A stretch of 64,000 bases of DNA from Sphingobacteriales bacterium (GTDB taxonomy: Bacteria > Bacteroidota > Bacteroidia > Sphingobacteriales > Sphingobacteriaceae), in NCBI GenBank assembly GCA_015655115.1, contig JAATFQ010000290.1, positions 62,001-126,000 of the forward strand, written 5' to 3'. Below, one piece after another: positions 7,998 through 48,699 of this stretch (positions are counted from its first letter, which is position 1; each line of letters starts with the position of its first letter). Made by a program: the position numbers and the translations under genes. The notes below the pieces were generated by a model. It was given only the letters and a program-made list of their open reading frames with translations, was not told the DNA's origin and did not search any database.

Positions 7998-8071
7998 AAT
8001 TTATTTTCTCTAAAATAACCTGAGCACCCTGTTTCTACGTATATACATATTAATAACCAAATATATATCTT

Positions 8072-9178: not shown

Positions 9179-9180
9179 TT

Positions 9181-10221: not shown

Positions 10222-10802
10222 CCGGGATAGCTTATTTTATTCATGGGTCTGCAGTTATTGACCAACCCTGTAATATAGGGCGAGGTACGAAGATATGGCA
10301 CTTTTCGCACATTATGGCGGGTGCTACAATTGGTGAACACTGTAATATTGGCCAAAATGTGGTCATTTCCACAGCCGTGATATTAGGTTCCAATGTGAAA
10401 GTGCAGAACAACGTTTCCATATATACCGGTGTAATCTGTGAGGATGATGTGTTTTTAGGCCCATCATGTGTATTTACCAATGTCATTAATCCCAGGAGTG
10501 CTGTTAGCCGTAAAAATGAATACGCCATCACAAATGTTCGTAAAGGTGCGTCCATAGGTGCTAATGCGACGATTATATGCGGCAATGAAATTGGGGAGTA
10601 TGCACTAATCGGTGCTGGCGCAGTAATTACTAAATCCGTTAAACCATTTGCTTTAATGGTGGGTAACCCAGCCAGGCAATTGGGCTGGGTCAGTGAATAC
10701 GGGCACAGATTAAATTTCGATGAAAAGGGATGGGCAGTTTGCCCTGAAGCACATAGTAAATATAAATTAGAAAATGATCAAGTTACCAGGAGCTATGAAT
10801 AA
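10218..10802 (+). CDS. wbpD: UDP-2-acetamido-3-amino-glucuronate acetyltransferase (WbpD/WlbB-like)
   Basis: The 194-residue hexapeptide acyltransferase has an almost complete left-handed beta-helix: CNIGRGTKIWHFSHIMAGA, GEHCNIGQNVVIS, SNVKVQNNVSIYTGV, then GASIGANATIICGNEIGEYALIGAGAVITKSVKPFALMVGNPARQLGWV. The IWHFSH and NPARQLGW segments are typical of the WbpD/WlbB group, which acetylates the 3-amino group of the UDP-sugar. It shares ATGA with the previous gene, and its 3' end overlaps the aminotransferase start. The three together form the biosynthetic core for a UDP-2,3-diacetamido-2,3-dideoxy-uronic acid. Confidence 0.9.
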   Translation: MTGIAYFIHGSAVIDQPCNIGRGTKIWHFSHIMAGATIGEHCNIGQNVVISTAVILGSNVKVQNNVSIYTGVICEDDVFLGPSCVFTNVINPRSAVSRKNEYAITNVRKGASIGANATIICGNEIGEYALIGAGAVITKSVKPFALMVGNPARQLGWVSEYGHRLNFDEKGWAVCPEAHSKYKLENDQVTRSYE

Positions 10803-19797: not shown

Positions 19798-20379
19798 ATG
19801 CATCAGGGAAAAGTTCATAGCCAGGAAGATACAGTACTTCTCGCTCAGTTAAGTGATGGTAGCAGAGTGGCATTTGATGCTTTATATGATAAATATTTTA
19901 AACAGGTTTATAATTCAGCCTATAAAAGATTAAATAATGCCCATCATGCTGATGATATAGCACAGGAAGTATTTGTACAACTTTGGATAAGAGGCTCTAA
20001 AACTCCGATAGATAATCTCCCGGGTTATCTGTTTACAATTGTCAAAAATAATATCTTCAAGTTTCTGCAAAAGGAATCCAAATATGCGGAGCTTCCAGAT
20101 ATGGCCAATCAAACTGAAGATCCTCTGGCTAATGCAGATGCTGTTTTGCTCTACCAGGAATTTCTCGATAGTTTTGACCAGCTAATTGAATCCTTGTCGC
20201 CCCAACAAAGAATTATCTTCAAGATGCGCTTTGAAGATGATCTGAGCAGTGCAGAAATTGCTGAAAAATTGCAAATATCTCCTAAAACAGTACGTAATCA
20301 GTTGGGCAAAGCTATTTCTAAGTTACGAGGCTCAATAGCTTTGATGTTTTTGTTATACATACTAAGTTCACGACAATAG
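19798..20379 (+). CDS. ECF RNA polymerase sigma factor (FecI-like)
   Basis: The 193-residue protein carries region 2 (FDALYDKYFKQVYNSAYKRL, HHADDIAQEVFVQLW) and region 4 (LSPQQRIIFKMRFEDDLSSAEIAEKLQISPKTVRNQLGKAISKL). It ends in a hydrophobic tail (IALMFLLYILSS), common in Bacteroidota FecI-type factors. It is released when the FecR anti-sigma factor is inactivated after substrate binds the TonB-dependent receptor, and then drives the susC operon. fecR and susC follow on the same strand, so the target is most likely the 22-34.7 kb operon. Confidence 0.93.
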   Translation: MHQGKVHSQEDTVLLAQLSDGSRVAFDALYDKYFKQVYNSAYKRLNNAHHADDIAQEVFVQLWIRGSKTPIDNLPGYLFTIVKNNIFKFLQKESKYAELPDMANQTEDPLANADAVLLYQEFLDSFDQLIESLSPQQRIIFKMRFEDDLSSAEIAEKLQISPKTVRNQLGKAISKLRGSIALMFLLYILSSRQ

Positions 20380-20621
20380 TAAATCACCAGATATCTCTTT
20401 TTCTTTTTGATATTTAATAGCCTTAAATCTGTTCTGTTGGTAATTATCTGATGCTTTTTGTATTGTTATTTTATGTTTTATGTTTTTCTTCTGAATTTAT
20501 CAGTATTAATAAGTGTGATTTGGCCTCTTAAAAGGCATTTTTTTATATTGACTATGTTTTTTTGTATTTTTTATCTAAAATAATGTTGCCTTGCGTGGGC
20601 TAATTCTCTTTTTTTAGACTC

Positions 20622-21839
20622 ATGTATAAAAAGGCGTCTATGAAAGCATTTAATAAAAAACTTTTTCTTGAAATCTTAGAGCGGTACAATTCAGGAAAAG
20701 CATCCCGGGAAGAATCTCGGTATCTTGAAGCGTATTACAATTTATTTGAAATTAGTGACGATTTTTTAGCTGATAACAATGAGAAAAGTATTAAGGAAGC
20801 AATAAAGCTAAGAATAGATCAGGAGATAGATCAATATGAAGGCAGAATTAGGAGTGTCGAAGCAGGGGGGAGAATTTTTAAGATATCTTTTCTGCGCTAT
20901 GCCGCCGCCGCCATCGCATTGATGATGCTGTCTATCGGTACCTACATTATTTTAAGAAATGGAAATGATCCTTCTGCGCAACTAGCTGTTCACCATGAAC
21001 TGTCTCCAGGTACTAATAAAGCTATTTTAACTTTGGCTAATGGAAAAAAGATTGTCCTGGATAAGTCTGCCAATGGTGAAATTGCCAAACAACCAGGTAT
21101 TAGTATCGAGAATACTCCTGACGGACAGATTGTTTATACAGTTATACCATCTAAAGACAGCCAGGTAAAAGGTAATGATATGTCTTCAAACACCATTTCT
21201 ACCCCTAAAGGGGGCCAGTATCAGGTTGTCCTTTCAGATGGGACCAGAGTTTGGCTAAATTCAGCTTCTTCGATCAGTTATCCTACTACTTTTAGTAAAG
21301 AGGAACGCCTTGTTGAACTCAATGGTGAAGCTTACTTTGAGGTTGCGAAAAATAAAAAAGTGCCATTCAGGGTAAAAACTAATGTACAAATAGTAGAAGT
21401 ATTGGGTACACATTTTAATATCAATTCATACGCTGATGAGCCTGTGATGAAAACGACCTTATTGGAAGGGGTTGTGAAAATTTCTACAGGAAATGATCAG
21501 GCCATTCTCGCCCCGGGCCAGCAGGCAAGGGTAAATAAAAGTGGTACTCATCTATCTGTGGAAAGCAATATCAATACAGACAAAGTTGTGGCTTGGAAAA
21601 ATGGCGTCTTCTCATTCGAGAATGATGATTTAAAATCCGTTATGCGGCAGATCGCCCGCTGGTATGATGTAGATGTGGTTTATAGCGGACCATTGCCGGG
21701 TGAGAAATTCTTTGGTGAGATTTCGCGCAACAGCAATTTATCGGAAGTCTTTAAAATATTAGAACTGAACAATGTCCATTTTGATGTAGTGGGCAAAACG
21801 ATAAGAGTTTCCGGAAATCCTTCAGGCACGGCAAAATAA
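20622..21839 (+). CDS. FecR-family anti-sigma factor
   Basis: The 405-residue protein has a cytoplasmic sigma-binding N-terminus (to ~88), one membrane segment at 91-110 (LRYAAAAIALMMLSIGTYII) and a periplasmic FecR domain. That domain contains STPKGGQYQVVLSDGTRVWLNSAS, SKEERLVELNGEAYFEVAKNKKVPFRV and VLGTHFNI, plus a C-terminal STN-like domain (VMRQIARWYDVDVVY). It should sense the STN domain of the adjacent SusC protein across the periplasm. It is separated from the sigma gene by 242 AT-rich bases without another gene. Confidence 0.93.
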   Translation: MYKKASMKAFNKKLFLEILERYNSGKASREESRYLEAYYNLFEISDDFLADNNEKSIKEAIKLRIDQEIDQYEGRIRSVEAGGRIFKISFLRYAAAAIALMMLSIGTYIILRNGNDPSAQLAVHHELSPGTNKAILTLANGKKIVLDKSANGEIAKQPGISIENTPDGQIVYTVIPSKDSQVKGNDMSSNTISTPKGGQYQVVLSDGTRVWLNSASSISYPTTFSKEERLVELNGEAYFEVAKNKKVPFRVKTNVQIVEVLGTHFNINSYADEPVMKTTLLEGVVKISTGNDQAILAPGQQARVNKSGTHLSVESNINTDKVVAWKNGVFSFENDDLKSVMRQIARWYDVDVVYSGPLPGEKFFGEISRNSNLSEVFKILELNNVHFDVVGKTIRVSGNPSGTAK

Positions 21840-21970
21840 TAATAGCATATAACCACAATAACAGCATATAACCTTTAACTAAACCAATTAACCGAATTTT
21901 TAACCATTTTAACATCAAACATGAGAAAACTACTACGCTGATCAACCTAACCAACCCAATTGACTAAAAA

Positions 21971-21996
21971 GCCGAAAGCGTCTCACCGCTTCCGGC
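21971..21996 (+). promoter_or_regulatory. Hairpin in the fecR-susC leader (first locus)
   Basis: GCCGAAAGCG (21971-21980) pairs with CGCTTCCGGC (21987-21996) with one mismatch and a six-base loop. A second weak stem, TGCAGC/GCTGCA at 22011-22036, is followed by a T run. The first hairpin lies 69 bases before the susC ATG and lacks a T tract itself. Comparable hairpins lie at the same place in the two other FecR-receptor loci. Confidence 0.5.
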
Positions 21997-22065
21997 AGAA
22001 TAAAGAGGTCTGCAGCCGTATTCGACCCCAGCTGCATTTTTATAAACTTAATCCTAAACAAAAGT

Positions 22066-25000
22066 ATGAAATTAACCAGTCTTTACAATGCCGTATGCGC
22101 AATACGGAAGGTAAAGTATAAATTCCTCATGGTGATGAAATTAACTCCTATTTTATTACTAATCGGCACTTTACACGTTACTGCCGCCAGCTTCTCTCAA
22201 ACTGTAACTATATCCCGAAAGAATGTTTCCCTGGAAACTGTTTTTAAAGAGATTAAGAAGCAAACCGGCTTTTTGTTTTTTTATACTGAGAAGGTGAATA
22301 TTACTGATCATATCCTCAATGTGGAGTTCAAAAATGTGCCTGTTGAAGAGGCTCTTGATGCTTGTCTGGCGGAGCAAAACCTTACCTATAACATCGTTAA
22401 TAAAACTATTGTGATCAGAAACAAAACTATTAATGTTAGGAATGGTATCACAGCCAGGTTAGATATTGGCGGGAGAGTGCTCGATAGTAAAACACAAGTG
22501 CCCATTCCTGGGGTAAATGTCTCGCTGAAGAGTAATAAAAATATCAGAACCCAGACAAATGAAAAAGGAGAGTTCAATATTAATGCGCAGCCCGACGATA
22601 TCCTGGTATTTACTTATATAGGCTTTAAGATTAAGGAAGTTAAGGCTGGCAATGGTAAGTTTTTAACAATCAGCCTTGAAGAACAAGTTAATGCAATGAA
22701 TGATGTTGTTGTTACTGGTTATCAAACTATCAGGAAAGATAGTTTTACAGGAACAGCAATTTCTATTAAAGGCGAAGATTTGAAAAGAGTGAACCCCCAG
22801 AATCTGTTGCAAAGTATTCAGGCTTTTGATCCGTCTTTCAAGCTTTTAGACAATAATCTTGTGGGCTCTAATCCAAATAGCCTTCCTACTATTAATGTAA
22901 GGGGCTCTTCGGCATTGCCAAGTGGCAATGGTGAAGTTTTACGACGTGATAATATTTCTGGAAATGTGAATATGCCAACTTTTATCATGGACGGTTTTGA
23001 AGTTAGTGTACAGAAGGTATTCGACCTGGACATGAACAGGGTAGAATCTGTAACGCTTTTAAAAGATGCTGCAGCAACTGCTATTTATGGTGCCCGTGCC
23101 GCCAATGGGGTACTTGTAATTGTAACCAGGGCGCCCAAAGAAGGAAAGCTCCAGGTTTCTTATAATTACGAACTGAATTTGAACTCAGCAGACCTGAAAG
23201 ATTACCAGGTACTTAATGCCACGGAAAAACTTCAATATGAGGTTTTAGCAGGACTTTATAGTTCTTCTGCTCAGCACGTTCCACAAGATCAGCTTGACGC
23301 AACTTACTACAATAGGCTTGCAAATGTAGTTGGAGGAGTGAATACCTACTGGCTCTCACAACCAGTACGTACTACGGCAGGACAAAAGCATTCTGTTTAT
23401 CTGGAAGGTGGCTCTGATGCATTCCGCTATGGAATAGACCTGCGTTACCAAACAAGGCCAGGGGTAATGAAAGGCTCTGGAAGAGATCAGTACTCGGGCG
23501 GAATGAACTTCACCTATCGTCTTAACAAAATACAATTCAGAAATGAGCTGTCTATTACACAGGTGAATGCTAAGGAATCTCCTTACGGAGATTTTGCCAA
23601 CTATGTAAAGACAAATCCATATTACCCTTTGGCAGATGAAAATGGCCGCGTGATCCGCGTGATTGATACCTGGAAATCTGATAACAATAACACTACGGAA
23701 TCTGTACTCAATCCGCTTTATGACGCTACCTTAAGCAGTTTCAATAAATCTGCTTACAGTGAGATTCTCGATAACCTTTCTGCAGAGGTAGAACTAGTTA
23801 AAGACTTGCGCTTAAAAGGACAGATGAGTCTCACAAGCCGCATGAATACCAATGATATTTTTAAATCGCCTGACGCGAATGAGTTCTATTTTTATGAATC
23901 TGATAAGATAGATGAAAAAGGTTCTTACACTAACATACAAAAGAAGGAAACCTTCTGGGATGGAAATGTAAGGCTTACCTGGCTAAAACAAATTGGAGAT
24001 AATTATTTCAATTTTCTGGCGGGTGTAAATATGCGTACTGAGCTTTCAGATGAAAAAGAGTTTACAGCTGTTGGTTTTGCGAACGACCGCTTTACAAGTA
24101 TAGGCTTCGCGAATGGTTATGCCGAAGATGCTGTGCCGGTCAGCAGAGTCGACAAATCCAGGCTTTTTGGCTCTTTCCTGAATATAAATTACTCTTATAA
24201 AAATAAATACCTGATGGATGCCGGTATCCGTATTGACGGATCTTCAAAGTTTGGAGTCGACAATAAACTGGCTCCCTTCTGGTCTTTCGGATTGGGATGG
24301 AATATCCATAATGAAGAATTCCTTAAAGATAATCCTGTAATCAGTCAGCTTCGGTTAAGAGCATCCACCGGACTTACGGGGTCTGTAAATTTCGACCCTT
24401 ATCTTTCGAGAACAACGTATGAATATATCAATAGCAACTGGTACTCCACTGGTATTGGTGCAAAAGTTAAAAGTTATGGCAATGAGAATCTATCATGGCA
24501 AAAGACTTTAGAAACGGACATTGGTATTGACCTGGGGCTCTTCCACGACAGGATAACGATCTCGCCAAAGGTATACCGGAAATTTACAAAGGATATCCTT
24601 GCTGATATTACTCTGGCCCCTTCAACAGGCTTTCTATCCTACAAGGAAAATTTAGGCGATATGGAAAACAAAGGTGCGGAAATCAGTGTCCGATGGGATG
24701 CCTTGCGCCGCAAAGATTGGGGAATCCAGCTGACAGCAAATATGGTGACCAACAAAAATAAGATTGTTAAGATATCTAATGCGCTTAAAAAATATAATGA
24801 CAGAGCTGATGAGCTACAGTCTAAAGACCAAAAGGATGGCGGATATAAGGGGGTGCCCTTGCTCCGGTTTAATGAAGGCCAGTCTATTAATGCCATCTAT
24901 GGGGTGCGGTCGCTGGGAATTGATCCGGAAAATGGACGGGAAATTTACGTAAAAAGAGACGGCACGCTTACCTATGACTATGATAAAAGGGATATTACTG

Positions 25001-25467
25001 TTATAGGTAATTCTGACCCTAAGGCCAACGGCTATTTTGGAGGTACTTTTACGTATAAGAGATTCATGTTAACAGCCAACTTCGAGACTCGCTTTGGCGG
25101 AGACATGTATAATCAGACGCTCGTAGACAGGGTTGAAAATGCAGATCCGAAGTATAATGTTGACCGACGTGTGTTTGAGGATAAATGGAATACTTCGGGC
25201 GACCTGACCTTTTATAAAAACATTGCTGACCTGGGCACAACGGAAGTTAACTCCAGGTTCGTACAGCCTGATAACCTGATCAATTTATCATCTCTCAACC
25301 TAACCTATGATCTGGATAAAAAGCAGGCATTAAGATTATTCATGTCCAGTATGCGGTTCTCATTGACAGCAAATGATGTTGCACGCTGGTCTTCTGTAAA
25401 ACAGGAAAGGGGAATTGATTATCCATTCGCCCGAAGTTTAACTTTTTCTATAAATGCTACTTTTTAA
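22066..25467 (+). CDS. SusC/RagA-family TonB-linked outer membrane transporter with STN domain
   Basis: The 1133-residue protein has a signal peptide (to ~45), an STN signalling domain at ~45-123 (VSLETVFKEIKKQTGFLFFYTEKVN), a carboxypeptidase-regulatory-like domain (~130-215: LDIGGRVLDSKTQVPIPGVNV), a TonB-box-like NDVVVTGYQ, a plug (LPTINVRGSS, VTLLKDAAATAIYGARAANGV) and a 22-strand-type barrel ending SLTFSINATF. With SusD it imports bulky ligands such as glycans or glycopeptides using the proton motive force. The STN domain makes it a transducer for the upstream FecR/ECF pair. Confidence 0.95.
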   Translation: MKLTSLYNAVCAIRKVKYKFLMVMKLTPILLLIGTLHVTAASFSQTVTISRKNVSLETVFKEIKKQTGFLFFYTEKVNITDHILNVEFKNVPVEEALDACLAEQNLTYNIVNKTIVIRNKTINVRNGITARLDIGGRVLDSKTQVPIPGVNVSLKSNKNIRTQTNEKGEFNINAQPDDILVFTYIGFKIKEVKAGNGKFLTISLEEQVNAMNDVVVTGYQTIRKDSFTGTAISIKGEDLKRVNPQNLLQSIQAFDPSFKLLDNNLVGSNPNSLPTINVRGSSALPSGNGEVLRRDNISGNVNMPTFIMDGFEVSVQKVFDLDMNRVESVTLLKDAAATAIYGARAANGVLVIVTRAPKEGKLQVSYNYELNLNSADLKDYQVLNATEKLQYEVLAGLYSSSAQHVPQDQLDATYYNRLANVVGGVNTYWLSQPVRTTAGQKHSVYLEGGSDAFRYGIDLRYQTRPGVMKGSGRDQYSGGMNFTYRLNKIQFRNELSITQVNAKESPYGDFANYVKTNPYYPLADENGRVIRVIDTWKSDNNNTTESVLNPLYDATLSSFNKSAYSEILDNLSAEVELVKDLRLKGQMSLTSRMNTNDIFKSPDANEFYFYESDKIDEKGSYTNIQKKETFWDGNVRLTWLKQIGDNYFNFLAGVNMRTELSDEKEFTAVGFANDRFTSIGFANGYAEDAVPVSRVDKSRLFGSFLNINYSYKNKYLMDAGIRIDGSSKFGVDNKLAPFWSFGLGWNIHNEEFLKDNPVISQLRLRASTGLTGSVNFDPYLSRTTYEYINSNWYSTGIGAKVKSYGNENLSWQKTLETDIGIDLGLFHDRITISPKVYRKFTKDILADITLAPSTGFLSYKENLGDMENKGAEISVRWDALRRKDWGIQLTANMVTNKNKIVKISNALKKYNDRADELQSKDQKDGGYKGVPLLRFNEGQSINAIYGVRSLGIDPENGREIYVKRDGTLTYDYDKRDITVIGNSDPKANGYFGGTFTYKRFMLTANFETRFGGDMYNQTLVDRVENADPKYNVDRRVFEDKWNTSGDLTFYKNIADLGTTEVNSRFVQPDNLINLSSLNLTYDLDKKQALRLFMSSMRFSLTANDVARWSSVKQERGIDYPFARSLTFSINATF

Positions 25468-25479
25468 GCTTTTTATCTC

Positions 25480-26991
25480 ATGGAATTAAATAATAAAAAT
25501 ATGAACATCAAATTGTTAATCGGCGTGCTATTGATTGCCGGATTATTCAGTTCGTGTAAAAAATGGTTAGAAGTACAGCCTGAATCGGAAATATCCGCAA
25601 CTGTTCTGTTCAGCACGGAAAGTGGATTTATGGAAGGGATTAATGGTGTATATAAGCGTTGCACGGAGGCTGATTTATATGGTGGTGAACTTACATTCGG
25701 AACCCCTGAAGTACTTGCTCAGAATTATTCGCTTAGTCAGCATGACGGTCTGGATTACAGGCAAACTGGTCTTTTTAATTATAAACATAGTAAATTCATT
25801 GAGCGAAAAGATAAGATATGGACAGGACTATATAGCGGCATTGTAAACTGTAACCTTATTCTGACTAATATCGATGAACACAAAAATGTCTTTACTGGCG
25901 TAAATTATGAATTGATAAAAGGAGAGGCGCTTGCAATGAGAGCATATCTGCACTTCGACGCATTACGCCTGTTTGCTCAGTCGTATGTAAGAAACGCTTC
26001 AGGAAAAGGCATTCCATATGTAACTACTTATTCCAAAGATGTTACTCCGCTTTCAACTGTTTCTGAGACCATTGATAAAGTGATTAAAGACCTGGAAGAT
26101 GCAAAAGTCTTGCTGGCTCAGGATCCGATCCGTAGTGCCGGTTATATTGTGGGCTACCCTGTACAGAAAGATTCTACTTTGAATACGGAGGAGAAATCCA
26201 ATATTCTGTTTCTGCAGAACCGGAGACACAGGCTAAATTATTTTGCTGTCTGCGGAACGCTTGCGAGAGTTTACCTTTATAAAAATGATAAAGTAAAAGC
26301 CCTCAGCAATGCGCTTGAAGTTATCAGATCAAATAAATTCCCATGGACTAACAAAAGTGATTTTATAGCTTTTGATGAGGCGAAAAAGGACCGTATACTT
26401 TATAAAGAGCTGGTGTTTGGATGGTATATTCCAGAATCACTGAAGGATTTGAGGGACAAGTGGTTCGTTGGCGGAACCAATAACTTTTTTTTACAGGAGG
26501 ATGCAGCCAAGTCTATCTATGAAACCGCAGGTGCAGGCAGTAATGACCTCCGCTATAAACAATGGTTATCGTTGACAGCTTCTGAGTCGGACAGATCGTT
26601 CGATATCGTGAAATACCGGAGAAATACACTCAGTACTGATGCCAGTGCCAATCTGCATTATCTGATGGCCCCGGCAATACGTCTGAGTGAGATGTACTAC
26701 ATCGCGGCAGAATGTTCTTATGCTACAAACCCTGGACTTGCACTTGATTATGTCAATGCTGTAAGGGCAGCCCGGGATGTTGATAACCTGACTGTTTCTT
26801 CTGAAGATGCTTTTATGACCGAACTTGTTAAAGAAGCACGTAAAGAATGGCTGACCGAAGGCCAGATTTTTTATATGTATAAAAGACTCAACCGTGCCAT
26901 CGTCGGACAAACAGGTACCCTGATTCCAGCTTCGGATAATATTTTCGTATTGCCTCTGCCAGAGGATGAGCTCGTTTACGGTGGTCGCTAA
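25480..26991 (+). CDS. SusD/RagB-family nutrient-binding lipoprotein
   Basis: The 503-residue lipoprotein (lipobox LFSSC, mature start at the Cys before KKWLEV) has SusD signatures: QPESEISATVLFSTESGFMEGINGVYKRC at the N-terminus, GEALAMRAYLHFDALRLFAQ for the TPR part, and MYYIAAECSYATNPGLALDYVNAVRAARDV with EARKEWLTEGQIFYMYKRLNR at the C-terminus. It caps the SusC barrel and captures substrate at the surface. A start at 25501, giving a shorter signal MNIKLLIG, is equally plausible. It is 13 bases after susC. Confidence 0.94.
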   Translation: MELNNKNMNIKLLIGVLLIAGLFSSCKKWLEVQPESEISATVLFSTESGFMEGINGVYKRCTEADLYGGELTFGTPEVLAQNYSLSQHDGLDYRQTGLFNYKHSKFIERKDKIWTGLYSGIVNCNLILTNIDEHKNVFTGVNYELIKGEALAMRAYLHFDALRLFAQSYVRNASGKGIPYVTTYSKDVTPLSTVSETIDKVIKDLEDAKVLLAQDPIRSAGYIVGYPVQKDSTLNTEEKSNILFLQNRRHRLNYFAVCGTLARVYLYKNDKVKALSNALEVIRSNKFPWTNKSDFIAFDEAKKDRILYKELVFGWYIPESLKDLRDKWFVGGTNNFFLQEDAAKSIYETAGAGSNDLRYKQWLSLTASESDRSFDIVKYRRNTLSTDASANLHYLMAPAIRLSEMYYIAAECSYATNPGLALDYVNAVRAARDVDNLTVSSEDAFMTELVKEARKEWLTEGQIFYMYKRLNRAIVGQTGTLIPASDNIFVLPLPEDELVYGGR

Positions 26992-27008
26992 TCAATAATA
27001 TTTTAATA

Positions 27009-27833
27009 ATGAAAAGACATATGAAATTATATATATTAATATTACTCGCTTTCATTGCCCTGGCTTCCTGTAAGAAAGCAGAAGAAATGCATTTCGATCA
27101 TTCGGCGAATGTTTATTTCGACATTTATAATGGAGATAAGGATAGTATTGTCAGAACTTTTGCCTACACTCCGAATCTGGCCCAGGACACAGTCTGGCTG
27201 CCTGTTCGTATTTCTGGAATCAGAATTCCCTCTCAAAGGGTATTTAATGCACGTGTGGAGACAGATTCTTCAACTGCTGTTGCCGGACTTCACTATGAAT
27301 TGCTTAAAAAATCCTATACAGTGGACGCGAATAATGGAGGTGCAGAAATACCTTTTGTTATCTATAATAAAGATAAACTGCTTGAACAGAAATCTGTATC
27401 AGTCATCATTAAGCTAATCGCATCTGACGATTTTGGAATTGAGATACCTAACCTGCTCAGGGCTAAAGTAGTTTTCTCTGCAAAACTGGAGAAACCTAAC
27501 TGGTGGGATGCATGGCCTCTGAATCCATATTCTAGAGTAAAACACGAGCTCTTTATCCTTGTAACGGGGCAAACATCCCTGACTACTGACGGACTGGATG
27601 CACCAAAGAACCTTTATTTTACAGGGCTGCTGACTACTATGCTGAATAACCCCTTTAAATGGGTAGCAAATAATGCGGCCAAAGGATACGTGCTGCAAGA
27701 GGTTGTTGCGGGTTCTGCCGACAGCTACTATTTCTATAATGTGAGTAACCCGGATAAGAAAACCTTATTGCGGAAAAATCAGCAGACTGGTAAATATTAC
27801 TTTATAGACGAAAATGGGAATGAAGTTATTTAA
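27009..27833 (+). CDS. DUF4843 surface lipoprotein
   Basis: The 274-residue lipoprotein (signal MKLYILILLAFIALASC with Cys at the lipobox) has the DUF4843 order of segments: NVYFDIYNGDKDSIVRTFAYT, DTVWLPVRISG, ARVETDSSTAVAGLHYELLKKSYTVDANN and a distal LEKPNWWD. This family regularly follows SusD genes in Bacteroidota and probably assists binding at the surface, like SusE/SusF. It is 18 bases after susD. Its 3' end overlaps an upstream start of the next frame. Confidence 0.88.
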   Translation: MKRHMKLYILILLAFIALASCKKAEEMHFDHSANVYFDIYNGDKDSIVRTFAYTPNLAQDTVWLPVRISGIRIPSQRVFNARVETDSSTAVAGLHYELLKKSYTVDANNGGAEIPFVIYNKDKLLEQKSVSVIIKLIASDDFGIEIPNLLRAKVVFSAKLEKPNWWDAWPLNPYSRVKHELFILVTGQTSLTTDGLDAPKNLYFTGLLTTMLNNPFKWVANNAAKGYVLQEVVAGSADSYYFYNVSNPDKKTLLRKNQQTGKYYFIDENGNEVI

Positions 27834-27843
27834 AACAACGGAC

Positions 27844-29265
27844 ATGGGTATCAAAAAAATAATAGTATTAATGGCAGTACTGGTTACTCTTTTTTCTGCC
27901 TGCCATAAAGATTTGGGCGATTATGAAATTCATATGCCCGACACTCCGGTTGTGACTAACCTGGATTCTGTTTATACGGTGAATGTTGGTGACAGCCTTA
28001 TTATTACACCAAAAATAACCAGCGCGGCGGATGCTGATATTGAGTTACAATGGCGTATAAGTGTAATGGAAGGTACCGACAAAAACTTTATTGGGCCATC
28101 ATTAAAAATGATATTTGGGCTACAGGCCAAAAGGTATGCTGCAAGGCTTACGGTCTACAATAAAACTAATGGAATGAAATATTTTCATTCTTTTCTTATA
28201 GATGGTGCTACTCAGTTTGCAACAGGAACAACTGTTTTGAGTGTTGAAAGTGGCGTCACTCAGTTTTCATTTATAAAGCCGGATGGTACTGTACAAGCGC
28301 GTTTATATAGAGCTATGCAGGGTAAAGATCTTCCAACCGATCCGATGAATCTTTTTCTGCTGAGAAATAAGAATACCGGGAATACTTTACTTGGATACTG
28401 GATCATTACGAAAACCGGAGGGGTAAGACTGGATGCTAATACAATGCAGGAAGAAGAGAAATATCCGAGTACATTAAAAGATAACTTCTTCTCCGCTCCT
28501 GATAGCCTAAGAGTTGATGAACTGAAACAGCAACCGCAAGGAGTTATGATGGGGATTATGAATGGCCAGCTGTATGGTGGCACAACCAATACATGGGACC
28601 AGGCCGCAACTTACGGCATGTTCGGATTACCAACTGAGGGCGATTATGAGCTTTCTCCTTCTTTTGTATTGAATTATACAAATAATGCGAGTTACTTCAT
28701 CTGCTTTGATATTAACCGCCAGCAGTTTCTAAGATTCAACTTGTATGGGGCACCAATGTATTTCGGTACTCAATACGCTGTTTCAAGTACGTCAGTATTT
28801 GATCCCATGAATGTGGGCATGGAGCTCATTCATCTGGAACAGCTTAATGGACAGGATACTTTCGCTTATTGTAAAGGCAGCGATGGGAAAGTTTATGAAC
28901 TGAAATTTAATGTGGAATTCAACGGCCCATTTACATTTACCCCACGGCACAAGCGGCTCTTTATTCGCCAGGACTTGATCACTGCCGGTACAAAATGGCA
29001 AGGTGCCAATAATGGGGTTATCTATATGAGCGCTGGTTCAAAAGTTTTCCGCTATAATCCTTTGAATGAAGAAGTCAGGGAGTTGGCGACAGATTTTGGA
29101 GGAAAGACGGTAACAATGGTTAAGATTTCAGATGACCAGGAAACGTTAATGGTGGGAACCGAAGGAACTATTTATTATCTGGATATCACCACCGGCAAAT
29201 ATGGTGCACTGATTAAAAAAATCAGTGGAATTCCGGGATCACCTGTAGATATGGCGTCACGATAA
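27844..29265 (+). CDS. PKD-like family surface lipoprotein
   Basis: The 473-residue lipoprotein (MGIKKIIVLMAVLVTLFSAC, lipobox FSAC) starts with an Ig/PKD-like domain (VVTNLDSVYTVNVGDSLIITPKITSAADADIELQWRIS) and continues with beta-rich, propeller-like repeats (LMVGTEGTIYYLDITTGKYGALIKK at the end). This pairing with DUF4843 behind SusCD is common in Pedobacter-type loci. It is probably an extra glycan- or peptide-binding lipoprotein. The frame is open from 27814, but the ATG at 27844, after the preceding stop, gives the cleanest signal peptide. Confidence 0.82.
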   Translation: MGIKKIIVLMAVLVTLFSACHKDLGDYEIHMPDTPVVTNLDSVYTVNVGDSLIITPKITSAADADIELQWRISVMEGTDKNFIGPSLKMIFGLQAKRYAARLTVYNKTNGMKYFHSFLIDGATQFATGTTVLSVESGVTQFSFIKPDGTVQARLYRAMQGKDLPTDPMNLFLLRNKNTGNTLLGYWIITKTGGVRLDANTMQEEEKYPSTLKDNFFSAPDSLRVDELKQQPQGVMMGIMNGQLYGGTTNTWDQAATYGMFGLPTEGDYELSPSFVLNYTNNASYFICFDINRQQFLRFNLYGAPMYFGTQYAVSSTSVFDPMNVGMELIHLEQLNGQDTFAYCKGSDGKVYELKFNVEFNGPFTFTPRHKRLFIRQDLITAGTKWQGANNGVIYMSAGSKVFRYNPLNEEVRELATDFGGKTVTMVKISDDQETLMVGTEGTIYYLDITTGKYGALIKKISGIPGSPVDMASR

Positions 29266-29274
29266 ATAAAATAT

Positions 29275-30210
29275 ATGACATTCAAAATGACACTAAAAAT
29301 AGTAATGATTTCTGCCTTTTTACCAGTTGTAGCGGTATCACAGACTCAGAAGCTGGTCAATAATAAAAAAAACAGGGCTAATTTAACGTTAGCTCCGCAA
29401 AAGACATGGCAGGAACACTGGTGGGAACATGACCTGCTGGTATCTCGGGTGTTTTATGATGAAAACGTTGCATTTTATTATGATCAGCATATGGATACTA
29501 CAGTAACATGGCCCTTTAAAGCTATGTCTGATACCTGGGCTTATGTAAAGAAAACTTATGGTAACATGGGTACTGATCCAAGGTTATACGTCGTTTTTCA
29601 TAAAGTAGTCAATAATAAACTAGGTGGGGGACATCCCTCACCTTATTTTGACGCTAGCCACGATTATCACAATACACTGGATTGCGGACTGGGAAACTGG
29701 GCAAGCCCGCATGGTGAGCAGATTGGAATGCCCATACATGAAATCGGGCACATCGTTACCAGTGCTACCCATAACACAAAAGGATCTCCTTCTGATGTGC
29801 TTTGGGGCGACAGCAAATTCATGGAAATCTTTAATTACGATGTGCTGATGAATATTGGCATGGCAGATGAAGCACAAAAAGTTTATGTACAAATGCAGAC
29901 ACAACATGATAATTTCCCTGTTGCCGGTACACAGTGGTTCAGAAATTGGTTTTATCCTATTTATAAAGACCACGGCAAAGCTGCAGTGCTCAATAAATAT
30001 TTTGTGGTGCTGGCTGCTAATTTTCCTAAAGATAGTGACCACAGGTTTACGCGTGACTTAAACTGGGGCGAATTTGTACACTTCTGGAGTGGTGCCGCAG
30101 GAGTAAATCTGAAGGCACAAGCTACCTTGGCTTTTGGATGGCCTGAGGATTGGGAAACACAGTTTAGAGCTGCACAGAAGGAATTTCCAAAAGTAAAATA
30201 TGCTTACTAG
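29275..30210 (+). CDS. Secreted putative zinc metallopeptidase (HExxH-x24-E)
   Basis: The 311-residue protein has a signal peptide cut near VAVSQTQ. His155-Glu-Ile-Gly-His159 with Glu184 24 residues later (KFMEIF) gives HExxH-x24-E, which fits the gluzincin/M60-like pattern of two His and a distant Glu ligand. Aromatic-rich segments around it (HPSPYFDASHDYHNTLDCGL, FPVAGTQWFRNWFYPIY) probably form the substrate cleft. I do not recognise a named family with certainty. M60-like enzymes act on mucin-type glycoproteins, which fits the fucosidase downstream. An alternative start is the ATG at 29287. Confidence 0.62.
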   Translation: MTFKMTLKIVMISAFLPVVAVSQTQKLVNNKKNRANLTLAPQKTWQEHWWEHDLLVSRVFYDENVAFYYDQHMDTTVTWPFKAMSDTWAYVKKTYGNMGTDPRLYVVFHKVVNNKLGGGHPSPYFDASHDYHNTLDCGLGNWASPHGEQIGMPIHEIGHIVTSATHNTKGSPSDVLWGDSKFMEIFNYDVLMNIGMADEAQKVYVQMQTQHDNFPVAGTQWFRNWFYPIYKDHGKAAVLNKYFVVLAANFPKDSDHRFTRDLNWGEFVHFWSGAAGVNLKAQATLAFGWPEDWETQFRAAQKEFPKVKYAY

Positions 30211-30337
30211 ACCTGATTATTTAAATAACCATTAAAAATTTAGCCATTTATTAACAAATATATAAAGGATGAAACCAGCATCAGCTTATAAAATCAATCT
30301 CCGGCTGATGCATTATTATCCACATAATCACATAAAC

Positions 30338-31471
30338 ATGAAAAAATTACTTCTACTATCTGCACTGATTCTCCCGCTGATAGCCGCGGCACAATCGCCC
30401 AATTTTACAATAACTGGTAAAATTGGCACTTTAAGTAAACCTGCCAAGATCTACATTGATTATATGGACAACGGTGTGTCTCATTCAGATTCTACTGAGG
30501 TCATTAATGGTGTATTTAAGTTCTCAGGGAACATCACCGGAAATGCTTATGCCCGTATGGCCCTTGCACATAAGGGCGATGGTAAAGAGCGCGCAATATA
30601 TACCGGCGACGTAATTTATTACTATTTTGGTAAAGAGCAAATACAGATCAGCTCCAAAGACTCGCTCAGCAATGCCGTATTTACCGGATCAAAAGTCCAT
30701 GATGAACATATGGCTTATAACAAAGCTATAGGCGGATCAATAATGGAGCTTACCAAAGCTGTAAATGCAGATTTTAATAGTGGAACTCCCGAAGATCAAA
30801 AAGATCCTGAGTTCAAAAAAGCAGTAGACGATAGGTTCAGGCTGAACCTTAAAAACAGGAACCAGAAAGAAATACTGTTTGCACAGGAACACCCTAATTC
30901 TTTTTTTGGCCTGGTAGCCCTTTCTGAAGCACAAAGCAGCAAAGAAGATGAAGCCCGGATTGCCGCAATTTATAATACCCTTAGTCCGGCTTTGCAGGCC
31001 ACAGATATGGGCAAAGAACTAGCTCAGCGCATCAGATCAAAAAGTATCACTTCAATTGGGTCAGATGCACCTGGGTTTACGCTTAATGATGTAAATGGTA
31101 AACCTGTTTCCTTATCAGATTTAAAAGGAAAGCTGGTACTGGTAGAGTTTTGGGCCAGCTGGTGTGGTCCATGTCGTGCTGAAAACCCGAATTTGGTGAA
31201 ACAATATAAGTTATATAAAGAAAAAGGCTTTGAAGTTCTTGCCGTATCGTTGGATAGCGACAAAGCCAAATGGGCAGATGCCATTGCTAAAGATGGTCTT
31301 CCATGGCTGCATGTTTCTGACTTAAAAGGATGGAATAATGCTGTCGGCAGATTATATGGAGTACGAGGTGTTCCGGCAAGCTTCCTGGTAAGTAAAGAAG
31401 GAAAGATAATTGGACTTGATTTGAGAGGCGAGGCGCTGAATGCTAAGCTTGCTGAAATATATTCCAAATAA
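30338..31471 (+). CDS. TlpA-family thioredoxin with DUF4369-like N-terminus
   Basis: The 377-residue exported protein has signal MKKLLLLSALILPLIAAAQ, an N-terminal beta-rich DUF4369-like domain (FTITGKIGTLSKPAKIYIDYMDNG) and a C-terminal thioredoxin fold with CxxC in FWASWCGPCRAENP, then VRGVPASFLV with the cis-Pro. Such proteins reduce disulfides in periplasmic or surface proteins and are frequent companions of SusCD loci. The frame extends upstream to 30269, but the ATG at 30338 gives the signal peptide. It may keep the cysteine-containing neighbours in a reduced or correctly paired state, which is inference. Confidence 0.9.
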   Translation: MKKLLLLSALILPLIAAAQSPNFTITGKIGTLSKPAKIYIDYMDNGVSHSDSTEVINGVFKFSGNITGNAYARMALAHKGDGKERAIYTGDVIYYYFGKEQIQISSKDSLSNAVFTGSKVHDEHMAYNKAIGGSIMELTKAVNADFNSGTPEDQKDPEFKKAVDDRFRLNLKNRNQKEILFAQEHPNSFFGLVALSEAQSSKEDEARIAAIYNTLSPALQATDMGKELAQRIRSKSITSIGSDAPGFTLNDVNGKPVSLSDLKGKLVLVEFWASWCGPCRAENPNLVKQYKLYKEKGFEVLAVSLDSDKAKWADAIAKDGLPWLHVSDLKGWNNAVGRLYGVRGVPASFLVSKEGKIIGLDLRGEALNAKLAEIYSK

Positions 31472-31545
31472 AAGAGGATATATACAAATTAAAATGAGGT
31501 AAATTATGCTCATGATTTTGCTATAACCTTTAACGCGAGCTCCTG

Positions 31546-32997
31546 ATGACCATTAAAAACAAATATATACTGATGAAATCACAATGTTTCCGTTTTTTAT
31601 TTCTAACAATTGCTGTACTCTGTACTGTTATGCTGTTTATGGCAGGCCATGTTTATGCGCAAGAAAAACCAGTTACACCAGCGCCGCTTTCACAGCTTCA
31701 GCAACAATTTGTTGACCTGGGGTTCGGGATGTTCATCCATTATAATATCCCTACTTATATGGAAGATGACTGGGCAGACCCGGATGCATTGCCAGCTATT
31801 TTTAACCCTAAGAAACTCAATACTGACCAGTGGGCCAAAGCGGCGAAATCTGCCGGCATGACCTATGGCTGCCTGACCACTAAACATCATAGCGGATTCG
31901 CCATTTGGGATACAAAAACTACAGCTTACAATGTGATGAACAGTCCCTTAAAACGAGATGTGGTGAAAGAATATGTGAATTCTTTCCGCAAGCAGGGCTT
32001 GAAGGTAATGTTGTACTATTCAATTCTGGATACACATCACAAACTCCGCCCCGGACAGATCACGCCTGCTCATATTAAAATGGTCAAAGACCAGCTGACT
32101 GAGCTGCTTACTAATTATGGGGAGATATCTGCCCTGATTATCGATGGCTGGGATGCGCCATGGTCAAGAATATCTTATGATGATGTACCCTTTGAAGAAA
32201 TATATAATCTGATTAAATCTATACAGCCCAACTGTTTGGTGATGGACCTGAATGCGGCAAAATATCCTGCCGAAGCGCTCTTTTATACTGATATCAAATC
32301 ATATGAGCAGGGCGCTGGCCAGCACATATCAAAAGACAGTAACCGGCTGCCTGCATTATCCTGTCTCCCAATTAATCAGAATTGGTTCTGGAAACCATCT
32401 TTTCCAGATGCCCCGGTAAAAAAAGCGAATGAGCTGGTGAATAATATGCTGGTGCCGCTTAATAAAGCTTATTGCAACTTCATTTTAAATGTAGCACCAA
32501 ACAGTGACGGTTTGATAGATGATAATGTGATTGCCGAATTGAAAGAGATCGGGCAACTGTACAAGCACCCGGAAAATTCTCCTAAACTTCCTGCCGCAGC
32601 GGCACCAGTTATCTCCTCAAACCTGGCTAAAAAGCACCCTGCTAATGCAAGCTGGAGCGATGATATGGCACTGATGGACTTTGCTACTGATGATGACTTT
32701 ACCACCAGTTGGGTATCTCATGCTGGTATTGCTGATCCGTGGTTTGAGGTAGACCTTAGTAAAGAAGTACCCTTTAACATGGTTGTGATTACTGAGGAGA
32801 AAGCTAATGTTTCTGCTTATAGGCTAGAGTATTTTGCGAATAACAAATGGCATCTGTTAACAGAGGGTAATGATGCTTCGAGGATAAAAATATACCGTTT
32901 TGAAAGGATTTGGGGCGATAAGGTACGGGTACGCTTTACCAAATTTAATAGCCCGCCTGCTATCGCAGAGATCGGCGTTTATCAGGAAAGGCGCTAA
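31546..32997 (+). CDS. GH29 alpha-L-fucosidase with C-terminal F5/8-type domain
   Basis: The 483-residue exported enzyme (signal to ~39, QEK; ATG at 31573 is an alternative start) has GH29 landmarks: GFGMFIHYNIPTYMEDDWAD, the barrel segment LTTKHHSGFAIWDTKTTAYNV, KVMLYYSILDTHH and the nucleophile region YGEISALIIDGWDAP, where Asp200 aligns with the family nucleophile. Residues ~350-483 form a discoidin-like (F5/8 type C) carbohydrate-binding domain (ASWSDDMALMDFATDDDFTTSW, WFEVDLSKEVPFNMVVI). It hydrolyses terminal fucose from glycans in the periplasm or at the surface. The acid/base residue cannot be assigned by eye. Confidence 0.88.
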   Translation: MTIKNKYILMKSQCFRFLFLTIAVLCTVMLFMAGHVYAQEKPVTPAPLSQLQQQFVDLGFGMFIHYNIPTYMEDDWADPDALPAIFNPKKLNTDQWAKAAKSAGMTYGCLTTKHHSGFAIWDTKTTAYNVMNSPLKRDVVKEYVNSFRKQGLKVMLYYSILDTHHKLRPGQITPAHIKMVKDQLTELLTNYGEISALIIDGWDAPWSRISYDDVPFEEIYNLIKSIQPNCLVMDLNAAKYPAEALFYTDIKSYEQGAGQHISKDSNRLPALSCLPINQNWFWKPSFPDAPVKKANELVNNMLVPLNKAYCNFILNVAPNSDGLIDDNVIAELKEIGQLYKHPENSPKLPAAAAPVISSNLAKKHPANASWSDDMALMDFATDDDFTTSWVSHAGIADPWFEVDLSKEVPFNMVVITEEKANVSAYRLEYFANNKWHLLTEGNDASRIKIYRFERIWGDKVRVRFTKFNSPPAIAEIGVYQERR

Positions 32998-32999
32998 GC

Positions 33000-34691
33000 A
33001 TGAGAAATAACAGGAACTTACTTGTCATCGTCTTTTTATTATTTTCGGTCCATGTAAGCGGGCAGCATTTTAATCCCCATAAATTACAGGCATCTATAAA
33101 AAAAGCTATTGAAAAAGCCTATCCTGCCAGCGTAAGGATATGGGCTTTTGATACGCTCAGCAATACACGTACAGGTGCCCAGTTTACTGGGGTAGTGGTT
33201 AAGGCAGACGGACATATCCTTACCGCTGCACATGTCAATACTCCGGGTAATACTTATAAAGTAATGTTTCCTGATGGTCAATCCGCTATTGCTGTAGGGC
33301 TAGGGGAGATAGAATTAGCGGAAGCTCCATCTACACCAGATGTGGCGATGATGAAGATCGTTGGCAGCAAGTTATGGCCTTACGCTGAAATGGGCTGGTC
33401 ATCTGCATTATCAATTAATGAACCATGTATAAGTATTGCCTACCCTGAGAGCCTCGACCAGCCGCTGCCTATGGTCAGGTTCGGGCATATACAAGATCTG
33501 AATAATAAATATGGCTTTATACAGTCTACCTGTATCATGGAACCCGGAGATTCCGGAGGGCCATTGTTTGATTATTCAGGCCGGGTGATTGGAATACATA
33601 GTGCGGTAGATATTAAGGAAACAGATAATTTTGAAGTCCCTATAGATCTATACCGTAAATATTGGAAAGCCCTGAATAAGGCTGAGACTTATAAATCATT
33701 CCCCATTTTGAAAGATGACGTTGGGAAAGATCCACTTGCTGCGCAGATAGTTGCTGTCGCCGGGTTGAATGACCCTGATTCGCACTTTGAAATACAAGAT
33801 AAACTTAAAGGGAGTAGTGTACAGATAGCAAGCAATATCCAGGGTAAAATGCAAAAAGTGCAGGGTACACTGTTTTCATTATTAGGTTATGGGTTAAAAA
33901 GCGGTGCCGGGAAAGGCAGTTCTGAAAATACCAGTATATTAATCAGCAAAAGCTCGCTGGTAGGGGATTCGGCTATTGCGGAAATTGCAGGCAGGCACAT
34001 TACCCTAAAGGTGATTGCCCGTGATCAGGAAAACGACCTTGTTTTGTTACAGCCATCGGTTAAAATAAAAGGTGGAATAGACCTCAAAAAAGTACTTTCA
34101 GATACCATAGGGTTTAGTCAGTTGGGTAATTTTCTTTTGTCGCCACTGGCGAATGATAGCTGTAAAGTAAGTGTATTGGGAAGTACACAGTTCGGTTTAC
34201 CGAAAATTGCAAGTATAGGCTTTCTTCCGGCACAGATCTCCTTTTTTGGGCCGCTATTGGTTACCTCAGTTCCGCAACAAACTGATACAGCTAAAGCTAA
34301 CCTTGAAAAGGGAGATTTGATTTTAAGTATCAATGGGGTGGCCTTGAATCAGCGTGCTGACTATATCAGAGAGTGCAAAAAATATTGGGCAGGTGATGAA
34401 GTTACTATTCAGGTCAGACGTAACGACAGCACTTTATCTAAAAAGATAATATTAGAGCCTAAGCTCCCGGTTGTTTCAAGCCACCCTGCCTCGCTTTTTG
34501 ATGGTGGAAAAAGTATCAGGCATGACGGGTTTAAGAAAGTCTTTGCGCATGATGCAAAACTGAAGCCACAGGAATGTGGGGGGCCGGTGTTTGACAATGA
34601 AGGCCATTTTTATGGTATTAATATAGCAAGATTCAGCAGGGTAAGCAGCATTGTTATCCCGACGGCGGCTGTACTCCGGCTTATACACTAA
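33000..34691 (+). CDS. Trypsin-like protease with PDZ and a degenerate second protease half
   Basis: The 563-residue exported protein (signal to ~22) has an S1 (trypsin/HtrA-like) domain with His78 (LTAAHV), Asp114 (PDVAMMKI) and Ser185 (EPGDSGGPLF), a complete triad. After ~240 a second S1-like half is visible without His, with ENDLVLLQP near 345 and Cys526 in QECGGPVFDNEGHFYGI where the serine would be. A PDZ domain lies at about 395-485 (EKGDLILSINGVAL). It starts two bases after the fucosidase stop, so it belongs to the operon. It may process peptides from the imported glycoprotein or serve envelope quality control. Confidence 0.85.
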   Translation: MRNNRNLLVIVFLLFSVHVSGQHFNPHKLQASIKKAIEKAYPASVRIWAFDTLSNTRTGAQFTGVVVKADGHILTAAHVNTPGNTYKVMFPDGQSAIAVGLGEIELAEAPSTPDVAMMKIVGSKLWPYAEMGWSSALSINEPCISIAYPESLDQPLPMVRFGHIQDLNNKYGFIQSTCIMEPGDSGGPLFDYSGRVIGIHSAVDIKETDNFEVPIDLYRKYWKALNKAETYKSFPILKDDVGKDPLAAQIVAVAGLNDPDSHFEIQDKLKGSSVQIASNIQGKMQKVQGTLFSLLGYGLKSGAGKGSSENTSILISKSSLVGDSAIAEIAGRHITLKVIARDQENDLVLLQPSVKIKGGIDLKKVLSDTIGFSQLGNFLLSPLANDSCKVSVLGSTQFGLPKIASIGFLPAQISFFGPLLVTSVPQQTDTAKANLEKGDLILSINGVALNQRADYIRECKKYWAGDEVTIQVRRNDSTLSKKIILEPKLPVVSSHPASLFDGGKSIRHDGFKKVFAHDAKLKPQECGGPVFDNEGHFYGINIARFSRVSSIVIPTAAVLRLIH

Positions 34692-34695
34692 TTAA

Positions 34696-34740
34696 CAATT
34701 AATATCTGGAATTATTTATATTAATTCCAGATATTAATTG
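34696..34740 (+). terminator. 19-bp-stem hairpin closing the susCD operon
   Basis: Arms at 34696-34714 and 34722-34740 are perfectly complementary over 19 bases with a seven-base loop, followed by TCTTTCCTTT. It starts five bases after the stop of the protease gene and before an own promoter for the next receptor, so it probably ends the operon. Confidence 0.75.
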
Positions 34741-34747
34741 TCTTTCC

Positions 34748-34778
34748 TTTATAATCAGTCTAAATAGTTGTAGGTTTG
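34748..34778 (+). promoter_or_regulatory. Bacteroidota-type promoter of the TonB receptor gene
   Basis: TTTA at 34748-34751 and TAGGTTTG at 34771-34778, with 19 bases between, fit the -33 and -7 boxes. Transcription would start about nine bases before the ATG at 34794, which supports that start over a TTG at 34776. Confidence 0.5.
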
Positions 34779-34793
34779 GGAAAATTACAATTT

Positions 34794-37145: not shown

Positions 37146-37151
37146 TTATCG

Positions 37152-48691: not shown

Positions 48692-48699
48692 TAAATTTG
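48692..48699 (+). promoter_or_regulatory. -7 box of a Bacteroidota promoter
   Basis: TAAATTTG matches TAnnTTTG exactly, 31 bases before the ATG at 48730. No good -33 box is visible. It argues for the ATG at 48730 rather than an upstream TTG at 48685, which would precede the transcript. Confidence 0.4.

Follow-up and report, generated by a model that had tools for sequence, protein, structure and literature searches.

Which nutrient is taken up by a SusC/SusD (SusCD) locus in which a fucosidase stands beside two candidate peptidases and a thioredoxin-like protein? The question is raised by ten open reading frames (ORFs), all on the + strand at positions 19798–34691 of a 64,000-nucleotide stretch (the window) of a Sphingobacteriales bacterium (GCA_015655115.1, contig JAATFQ010000290.1, positions 62,001–126,000). 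This stretch lies on contig C7 in our numbering, in a genome of 4.9 Mb that is 81% complete. An earlier note on this DNA had proposed fucosylated glycoproteins or glycopeptides as the nutrient. On balance, we think that the ORFs form an operon controlled by an extracytoplasmic function (ECF) sigma factor and its anti-sigma factor that harvests proteins or glycoproteins, with glycopeptide harvesting as the best reading of a substrate that is predicted from the genes. A fixed, dedicated fucose-specific locus, in contrast, is not supported by our comparisons. The more interesting part is an uncatalogued metallopeptidase family (MP) and its repeated pairing with mannosidases, the fucosidase and BSP peptidases.

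Recurrence of the enzyme set

The four enzymes are encoded next to one another: MP (29275–30210), a protein with an HExxH motif (HEIGH) and no Pfam or NCBIfam family that is predicted to be a zinc metallopeptidase; a TlpA/ResA-type thiol-disulfide oxidoreductase with DUF4369 (TlpA; 30269–31471; PF08534, PF00578 and PF14289; WASWCGPC); an alpha-L-fucosidase of glycoside hydrolase family 29 (GH29; 31546–32997; PF01120, E-value (E) 1.1e-48) with a C-terminal F5/8-type-C domain (PF00754); and a trypsin-like plus PDZ serine protease (HtrA-like; 33000–34691; PF13365, E 2.4e-26; PF13180). We compared 135 distinct MP loci after removal of duplicates, including 79 loci kept from the 260 MP-encoding stretches found in a scan of GTDB genomes, where a GH29 orthologue was defined by an identity of 55% or more. 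Such an orthologue shared its strand with MP in 17 loci, with TlpA in 10 and with both TlpA and HtrA in 7. Two of these seven four-gene loci, the window and Pedobacter sp. ok626 (L086; loci are cited by our L numbers), carry the window's SusCD type, and the other five (L039, L042, L051, L070 and L120) carry another lineage, SusC being 23–25% identical between the two types. L086 combines the window's core with a DsbD_N-like gene, GH29, HtrA and GH92, and in L051 two GH92 genes flank GH29. That one enzyme set recurs behind two importers is our strongest reason to think that these four enzymes cooperate. Judged from these comparisons, the fucosidase, metallopeptidase, TlpA and trypsin-PDZ genes are genuinely linked, and the gene arrangement, being conserved in other genomes, is beyond chance.

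The motifs of the catalogued enzymes were well conserved. In TlpA, each residue of W-A-S-W-C299, P301 and C302 was shared by at least 18 of 19 aligned sequences. The closest solved relatives of GH29 by sequence were alpha-L-fucosidases (9eu1–9eu4, E 1.9e-37), and Asp200, in the motif IDGW, was present in at least 16 of 17 aligned sequences. The GH29 nucleophile is described as a conserved Asp in the parts of the literature that we consulted (PMC10154630), so that Asp200 is the probable nucleophile of the window enzyme; the same source notes that the GH29 subfamily is not always predictive of linkage. In the HtrA-like protein, H78, D114 and S185 (GDSGGP) were each found in at least 12 of 13 aligned sequences, and the His-Asp-Ser triad followed by PDZ agrees with the HtrA/DegP family. 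It scored far under the NCBIfam cut-offs for DegP-type proteins and is therefore not DegP itself. We also found a second trypsin-like motif, ECGGPVFD, C-terminal to its PDZ domain with Cys replacing the usual Ser, which is possibly part of a second, degenerate protease half.

A predicted, uncatalogued metallopeptidase family and its neighbours

Two peptidase candidates had been named in the earlier note, of which the trypsin-PDZ protein has its conserved triad while MP belongs to no catalogued family, its activity being predicted. MP had zero Pfam or NCBIfam matches at E up to 1, and none of the 22 members aligned for profile work convincingly fitted any peptidase family in these databases, the weak Pfam matches being to Reprolysin (E 0.03, 2/22) and M90 (E 0.045, 1/22). 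The residues H155, E156 and H159 (HEIGH) and E184 were shared by all 40 members of one set, the window's MP among them, and by at least 109 of the 110 members of a larger set. The HExxH motif and downstream Glu are those of the gluzincin clan MA(E), in which E184 would be a zinc ligand. An AlphaFold2 (AF2) model of MP had a predicted local distance difference test (pLDDT) score of 88.6 and a predicted template modelling score of 0.84. Its fold neighbours included M1 aminopeptidases (best Z 13.5), M30 lugdulysin (13.4), a Bacillus protein of unknown function that appears in two rows (4fca, 13.0) and the M60 O-glycopeptidase AM0627 (PDB 7yx8; Z 12.3, root-mean-square deviation 4.4, 244 residues aligned), and nearly all of the 50 rows shown (Z 11.8–13.5) were zinc metallopeptidases or aminopeptidase N complexes, the query being a predicted model. 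Foldseek returned zero matches at E ≤ 0.001, and therefore any kinship of MP is distant; sequence searches against PDB gave chance-level rows only, and none when a profile was used. The motif and the model together make MP a predicted gluzincin-type metallopeptidase.

Three known families were tried and rejected for MP. The window protein and the 22 members had no match to M60 (PF13402) at E up to 1, profile comparison with M60 aligned the motif only (probability 14.8), and the candidate third ligand was spaced by 24 residues against 14 in an M60 alignment of 8 sequences; hence the name M60 is not used here. BSP (PF04450) was absent from the families matched by the 22 members and reached an hhalign probability of only 46, and in these searches BSP is a frequent neighbour of MP but a different family. 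No match to an M1 profile was obtained either. The M60-like O-glycopeptidases AM0627 and BT4244 nonetheless resemble MP in their HExxH zinc site and in their co-location with binding domains and glycosidases, although M1 and M30 scored somewhat higher than AM0627 in the fold comparison. MP may work like an M60 enzyme; known O-glycopeptidases, as far as the consulted part of the OgpA source tells, span several MA-clan families (PMC7518263).

MP was found in 58 of 301 genomes of the window's family. By title, 55 of the 79 kept loci belonged to Pedobacter, Mucilaginibacter, Chitinophaga or Niastella, and the other hosts included Paenibacillus, Hyalangium and Cellvibrio. By eye, MP, HtrA-like and GH29 of the window each have an apparent signal peptide. 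The window MP is without a lipobox and is therefore periplasmic or secreted; by a crude pattern, 29 of 110 members have a lipobox-like motif, so some of the family probably carry a lipid anchor.

We then counted genes within 8 kb on each side, on either strand, of 73 MP loci, comprising the window and 72 places in 58 genomes (tandem copies counted once, the fragment G171:C2:2294464 dropped, and L181 and L194 ended by contig ends). SusC was a neighbour in 58 loci, a BT_3987-like/F5-8C protein in 40, GH92 in 29, BSP in 28, ROK in 20, GH29 in 19, TlpA in 16 and HtrA in 9. GH92 gave 48 matches near MP where 2.1 were expected from genome density and GH29 gave 19 against 1.9, with 55 pieces for BSP; these match totals are non-overlapping tblastn pieces, in which split genes are possibly counted twice, and the genome totals are Pfam matches. 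As controls we used 40 SusD loci of 25 genomes from the window's family, hand-picked from the best-scoring listed rows with MP neighbours skipped. GH92 was found at 28 of the 58 SusC-bearing MP loci and 6 of the 40 controls (p 0.001), BSP at 28 and 0 (p 2e-8) and GH29 at 14 and 3 (p 0.055, short of significance), all p-values being too optimistic in that the compared loci are related and not independent. ROK (20/58), TlpA (16/58) and HtrA (9/58) were each found at 0/40 controls, while sigma and FecR did not differ between MP loci and controls. The tie of MP to GH92 and BSP is thus strong in these counts, and a general tie to GH29 is suggestive.

A frequent version in the window's genus has the order ROK, BT_3987-like, SusC, SusD, MP, BSP, BSP and GH92 with small variations, and sometimes GH29 (L066 and L170). 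The arrangement of ROK, BT_3987-like lipoprotein, SusC, SusD, MP, BSP peptidases and GH92 was observed in L168–L176, L178, L182–L184, L186 and L187, of which L170 adds GH29, and is a candidate mannose-glycoprotein locus of its own. In Salegentibacter (L129), MP stands beside GH125 and GH92. Outside Bacteroidota, a Cellvibrio MP relative (L138, 8397–15053) lies within a few kb of GH76 and GH16, with CBM6 also near, and we observed a Paenibacillus relative (L142, 9986–14787) near a GH18 chitinase; these two loci give a faint hint of fungal walls.

Importer core, operon layout and downstream genes

The order SusC, SusD, DUF4843, PKD, MP and TlpA was common to 12 MP loci, window included, and variation was found 3' of TlpA. 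This part contained GH29 and HtrA in one locus, GH29 alone in one, HtrA alone in four, a DsbD_N-like gene alone in one, DsbD_N-like with GH29, HtrA and GH92 in one, and DsbD_N-like with a second TlpA and an M16 peptidase in four (4 of the 13 tabled core versions). In L074 (12014–17602), L079, L100 and L188, TlpA is followed by a gene for a protein of ~625 amino acids whose C-terminal domain is DsbD_N-like, and by genes for another TlpA and an M16 peptidase.

We also searched for relatives of the core by its PKD protein (70 rows at or above 37% identity, with a single one of the two fragments from G053 retained) and for HtrA-like proteins (83 long rows, with four fragment rows and weak matches excluded), where both sets are lower bounds because the best five PKD and best four HtrA candidates were scored per genome. 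Among the at least 70 PKD-type loci, MP was adjacent in 6 and HtrA was near in 44; among the at least 21 matches with 60% identity or more, HtrA lay within 10.5 kb in 17 of 21. Five close relatives (L240, L243, L245, L247 and L248), whose SusD, DUF4843 and PKD are 62–76% identical to the window's, have the order SusC, SusD, DUF4843, PKD, TlpA, (DsbD_N, TlpA) and HtrA.

In FastTree trees of a chosen set of 38 loci, midpoint-rooted, the window's SusD and PKD grouped with these five relatives (support 1.0). MP, by contrast, grouped with L048, L076, L081, L082 and L084 (0.94), GH29 with L081/L091/L086 (0.76) and TlpA with L096 (0.95). HtrA grouped with L086/L237 (0.68) within a clade also holding L238, L239 and L240 (1.0), and is not clearly discordant since that clade includes L240. 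The window locus therefore looks like a mosaic, in which an importer shared with loci without MP and GH29 is joined to a peptidase and a fucosidase with closest kin elsewhere. Its core, SusCD-DUF4843-PKD-TlpA(-HtrA), is conserved, and to this core MP and GH29 seem to have been added. MP may instead have been ancestral and lost in the close relatives, as it has the same place in more distant core loci (SusC 53–58% identical). Two paralogous loci were observed in the same genome. One (L034, contig C20, 4635–17492) has SusC, SusD, DUF4843, PKD and TlpA with a DUF4953/DUF5117 Met-zincin in MP's stead; the other, on contig C151 (L035), is a third such locus followed, by eye, by ABC-transporter-like genes.

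Several of these results weigh against the glycoprotein reading. In the PKD matches of 60% identity or more, MP within 4 kb was found at the window only and at 0 of the 20 others, so that conservation of the gene set, proposed as a check in the earlier note, held for seven MP loci of two SusCD types but not among the closest PKD relatives. The five core relatives are without MP and GH29, and fucose is therefore not the core's defining nutrient. Of the at least 83 long HtrA-like matches, 32 lie near neither the core nor MP, indicating a broader family. Among the ten proteins of the operon, Pfam detected no GH92, PNGase or endoglycosidase. The peptidase activity of MP rests on a motif and a predicted fold. 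Within the four-gene loci, the HtrA frame of L070 is interrupted and the HtrA match of L051 extends past the end of its stretch. The neighbour comparison has its own weaknesses: the relatedness of the compared loci and the non-significant GH29 excess already noted, GH29 proteins only 25–29% identical to the window's at some MP loci (L054, L055, L056, L058 and L060), and neighbours unrelated to glycans at some distant ones (e.g. Niastella L116), which disfavours one universal substrate.

A second explanation is a plain peptide or protein uptake locus. Here peptides would enter through SusCD and be digested by HtrA, MP and TlpA, and GH29, as a passenger, would have little bearing on which nutrient is used. 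The P. gingivalis RagAB system is a peptide importer, and both it and the window locus are SusCD-type TonB transporters tied to proteolysis; RagAB is not known to include a glycosidase. A core without MP is indeed the usual form (64 of the 70 PKD-type loci in the lower-bound list), the five closest core relatives examined are also without GH29, and the core is repeatedly accompanied by TlpA, DsbD_N-like, M16 and HtrA. The recurrence of GH29 orthologues on the MP strand in 17 of 135 loci, 10 of them with TlpA and with more than one SusCD type, is however too regular for a passenger, and MP is associated with GH92. We consider plain peptide uptake rather unlikely, if the likeliest of the alternatives.

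For the operon itself, profile searches in Pfam and NCBIfam bore out the ten genes on one strand of the kinds described in the earlier note. It begins with an ECF sigma factor of the Bacteroidota Sig70_bacteroi1 type (19798–20379; TIGR02985, E 1.1e-36, barely above cut-off) and a FecR-type anti-sigma factor (20622–21839; PF04773, E 1.7e-20; PF16344, E 4e-17). These are followed by a SusC/RagA TonB-dependent transporter (22066–25467; TIGR04056, 602.8 bits) with an N-terminal STN signalling domain (PF07660) and a SusD/RagB surface lipoprotein (25480–26991; PF14322, E 7.1e-21; PF07980) with a Cys in a lipobox-like context. A DUF4843 lipoprotein (27009–27833; PF16132, E 3.2e-38) is a probable surface accessory protein; its lipobox Cys21 was invariant in 6 of 6 aligned sequences, window included, and no PDB relative was found by sequence at E up to 1. 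A PKD_2 lipoprotein (27814–29265; PF16407, E 5.3e-13), with a beta-rich C-terminal part, is a probable ligand-capture protein in which the lipobox Cys30 was invariant in 13 of 13 aligned sequences, window included, and for which sequence searches against PDB gave chance-level rows only. Many of the 50 Foldseek rows shown for PKD were WD40/kelch propeller proteins, but a propeller fold was dropped as the AF2 model, with a mean pLDDT of only 65.9, is too weak for a fold claim.

The gaps from SusC to HtrA-like are 12, 17, -20, 9, 58, 74 and 2 nt. The tiny gaps of the earlier description thus apply from SusC onward, whereas the regulators are set off by 226–272 nt (242 nt between sigma and FecR, 226 nt between FecR and SusC). 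The closing hairpin was recovered as an inverted repeat with a 20-bp stem and a 7-nt loop (34695–34741, + strand), the 85-nt stretch containing it folding at -25.8 kcal/mol. It is AT-rich with no clean T run downstream, and is a likely terminator. A simple check for Bacteroidota-type promoters gave two look-alikes only, both upstream of FecR. SusC and SusD are adjacent as in a polysaccharide utilization locus (PUL), and GH29 is the sole carbohydrate-active enzyme of the operon.

A third explanation is a fucosylated polysaccharide locus in which GH29 is catabolic, TlpA and HtrA serve envelope folding and quality control, and MP processes the locus's own proteins. The binding-type F5/8C domain of GH29, the general envelope roles of the HtrA-like and TlpA families and sulfatase-type genes near MP in L036 and L037 fit this explanation. 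However, the operon has one glycosidase and no recognised depolymerase, core relatives with HtrA and TlpA had neither of the two glycosidases that were sought, GH29 and GH92, and one sulfatase query matched near MP in 2 of 73 loci against 1 of 40 controls. We regard a polysaccharide locus as improbable.

Directly 3' of the hairpin, a TonB-dependent receptor and a PepSY_TM protein are encoded 6 nt apart (34776–38258). An iron or metal uptake system could be read from this pair together with sigma/FecR and the STN-bearing SusC; the FecI/FecR/STN architecture and the PepSY_TM gene (37152–38258) speak for it. The pair lies beyond the hairpin, a search for it in L034–L152 gave a single weak match to PepSY (L127, 30% identity) and none to the receptor above 100 bits, and window-like sigma and FecR also occurred at control SusD loci (5/40 and 6/40). 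An iron role inferred from the pair was rejected as the pair is not conserved with the locus in L034–L152, and we consider iron uptake highly improbable; among 12 of the 72 passages of a study of the iron stimulon (PMC10434189), nothing on this locus type was found.

Elsewhere in the window we observed genes for a glycosyltransferase, a sugar transferase, an oxidoreductase and a DegT aminotransferase (6906–11916), probably for surface polysaccharide synthesis; a large CheB-CheR-PAS-histidine-kinase fusion (49963–53130) adjoining a GAF-domain gene (48685–49851); and a further locus of FecR, TonB receptor (CarbopepD_reg_2) and SusD-like_2 (53889–59977).

Known systems and the predicted substrate

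In the section consulted of a published study (PMC11992087), the B. thetaiotaomicron PUL BT4240-50 for mucin O-glycoproteins combines sigma/anti-sigma, SusCD, an M60-like glycopeptidase and glycoside hydrolases, and its authors suggest that a protease and glycosidases in one PUL allow both moieties of glycoproteins to be used. Like the window locus, it unites sigma/anti-sigma, SusCD, a surface binding protein, a metallopeptidase and glycosidase genes, and it targets both the protein and the glycan moiety of glycoproteins, as proposed here. BT4240-50 has an M60-like peptidase, GH2, GH109 and a GalNAc kinase, where the window operon encodes a GH29 enzyme and a peptidase from an uncatalogued family. 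The operon also has TlpA, HtrA, DUF4843 and PKD_2, none of which that section mentions. No GH2 or GH109 was found among the ten proteins of the operon, and M60-like PF13402 had 0 matches in the 81% complete genome.

Plant N-glycan loci of gut Bacteroides similarly place GH29 near SusC/D, where it removes core alpha1,3-fucose, according to the portions consulted of PMC9522356. They also hold GH92, which was not found in the window operon but is present in its sister locus L086, and a PNGase keystone, of which none was found in the operon; neither "protease" nor "peptidase" appears in the main text of that paper.

A combination of SusCD, peptidase and glycosidases is thus a published kind of locus, and the window locus is not a new kind but differs, from the published sections, in other enzyme families and in TlpA and HtrA. 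The earlier note knew of no described locus with this exact set. Literature searches found nothing on DUF4843 with SusD, only off-topic work, by title, on PKD-like, SusCD, thioredoxin, metalloprotease and DUF4843 together, and, by titles and the starts of abstracts, no such gene set in the listed work on glycoprotein loci, Pedobacter glycoprotein loci or operons of TlpA, SusC, SusD and peptidase.

Glycopeptide harvesting would proceed as follows. SusD, DUF4843 and PKD would capture partly degraded protein or glycoprotein at the surface, and SusC would import peptides or glycopeptides with TonB energy while its STN domain would signal through FecR to the sigma factor. MP and HtrA-like would cut peptide bonds, GH29 would remove fucose, and TlpA would reduce or exchange disulfides, making the peptides digestible. 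The GH92 and BSP genes linked to the MP family point to mannose-bearing glycoproteins, for which plant N-glycoproteins or fungal wall proteins with fucose and mannose are our guess as the source. In the parts consulted of the respective papers, plant N-glycans carry core alpha1,3-fucose (PMC10154630, PMC9522356), and fucose makes up 25% of wall carbohydrate in Umbelopsis and 12% in Mucorales strains (PMC10481521), so that fungal walls are an alternative source for soil bacteria. Mucin as a substrate had no specific support. In its boldest form, which we put forward tentatively and with some doubt, MP would be the founder of a new, widespread family of zinc glycopeptidases for fucosylated or mannosylated glycoproteins, repeatedly combined with GH29 or GH92, BSP and TlpA behind unrelated SusCD, as a modular 'glycoproteolysis' by which soil Bacteroidota would use plant N-glycoproteins or fungal wall proteins rich in fucose.

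As this locus suggests, a SusCD locus can keep its importer and yet exchange its enzymes, which makes it risky to infer a nutrient from enzymes alone. If the glycopeptide reading is true, a protease family unnamed in Pfam and NCBIfam would be a partner of mannosidases and fucosidases, and these loci would offer concrete genes to study how soil Bacteroidota eat intact glycoproteins, obtaining nitrogen and sugar together.

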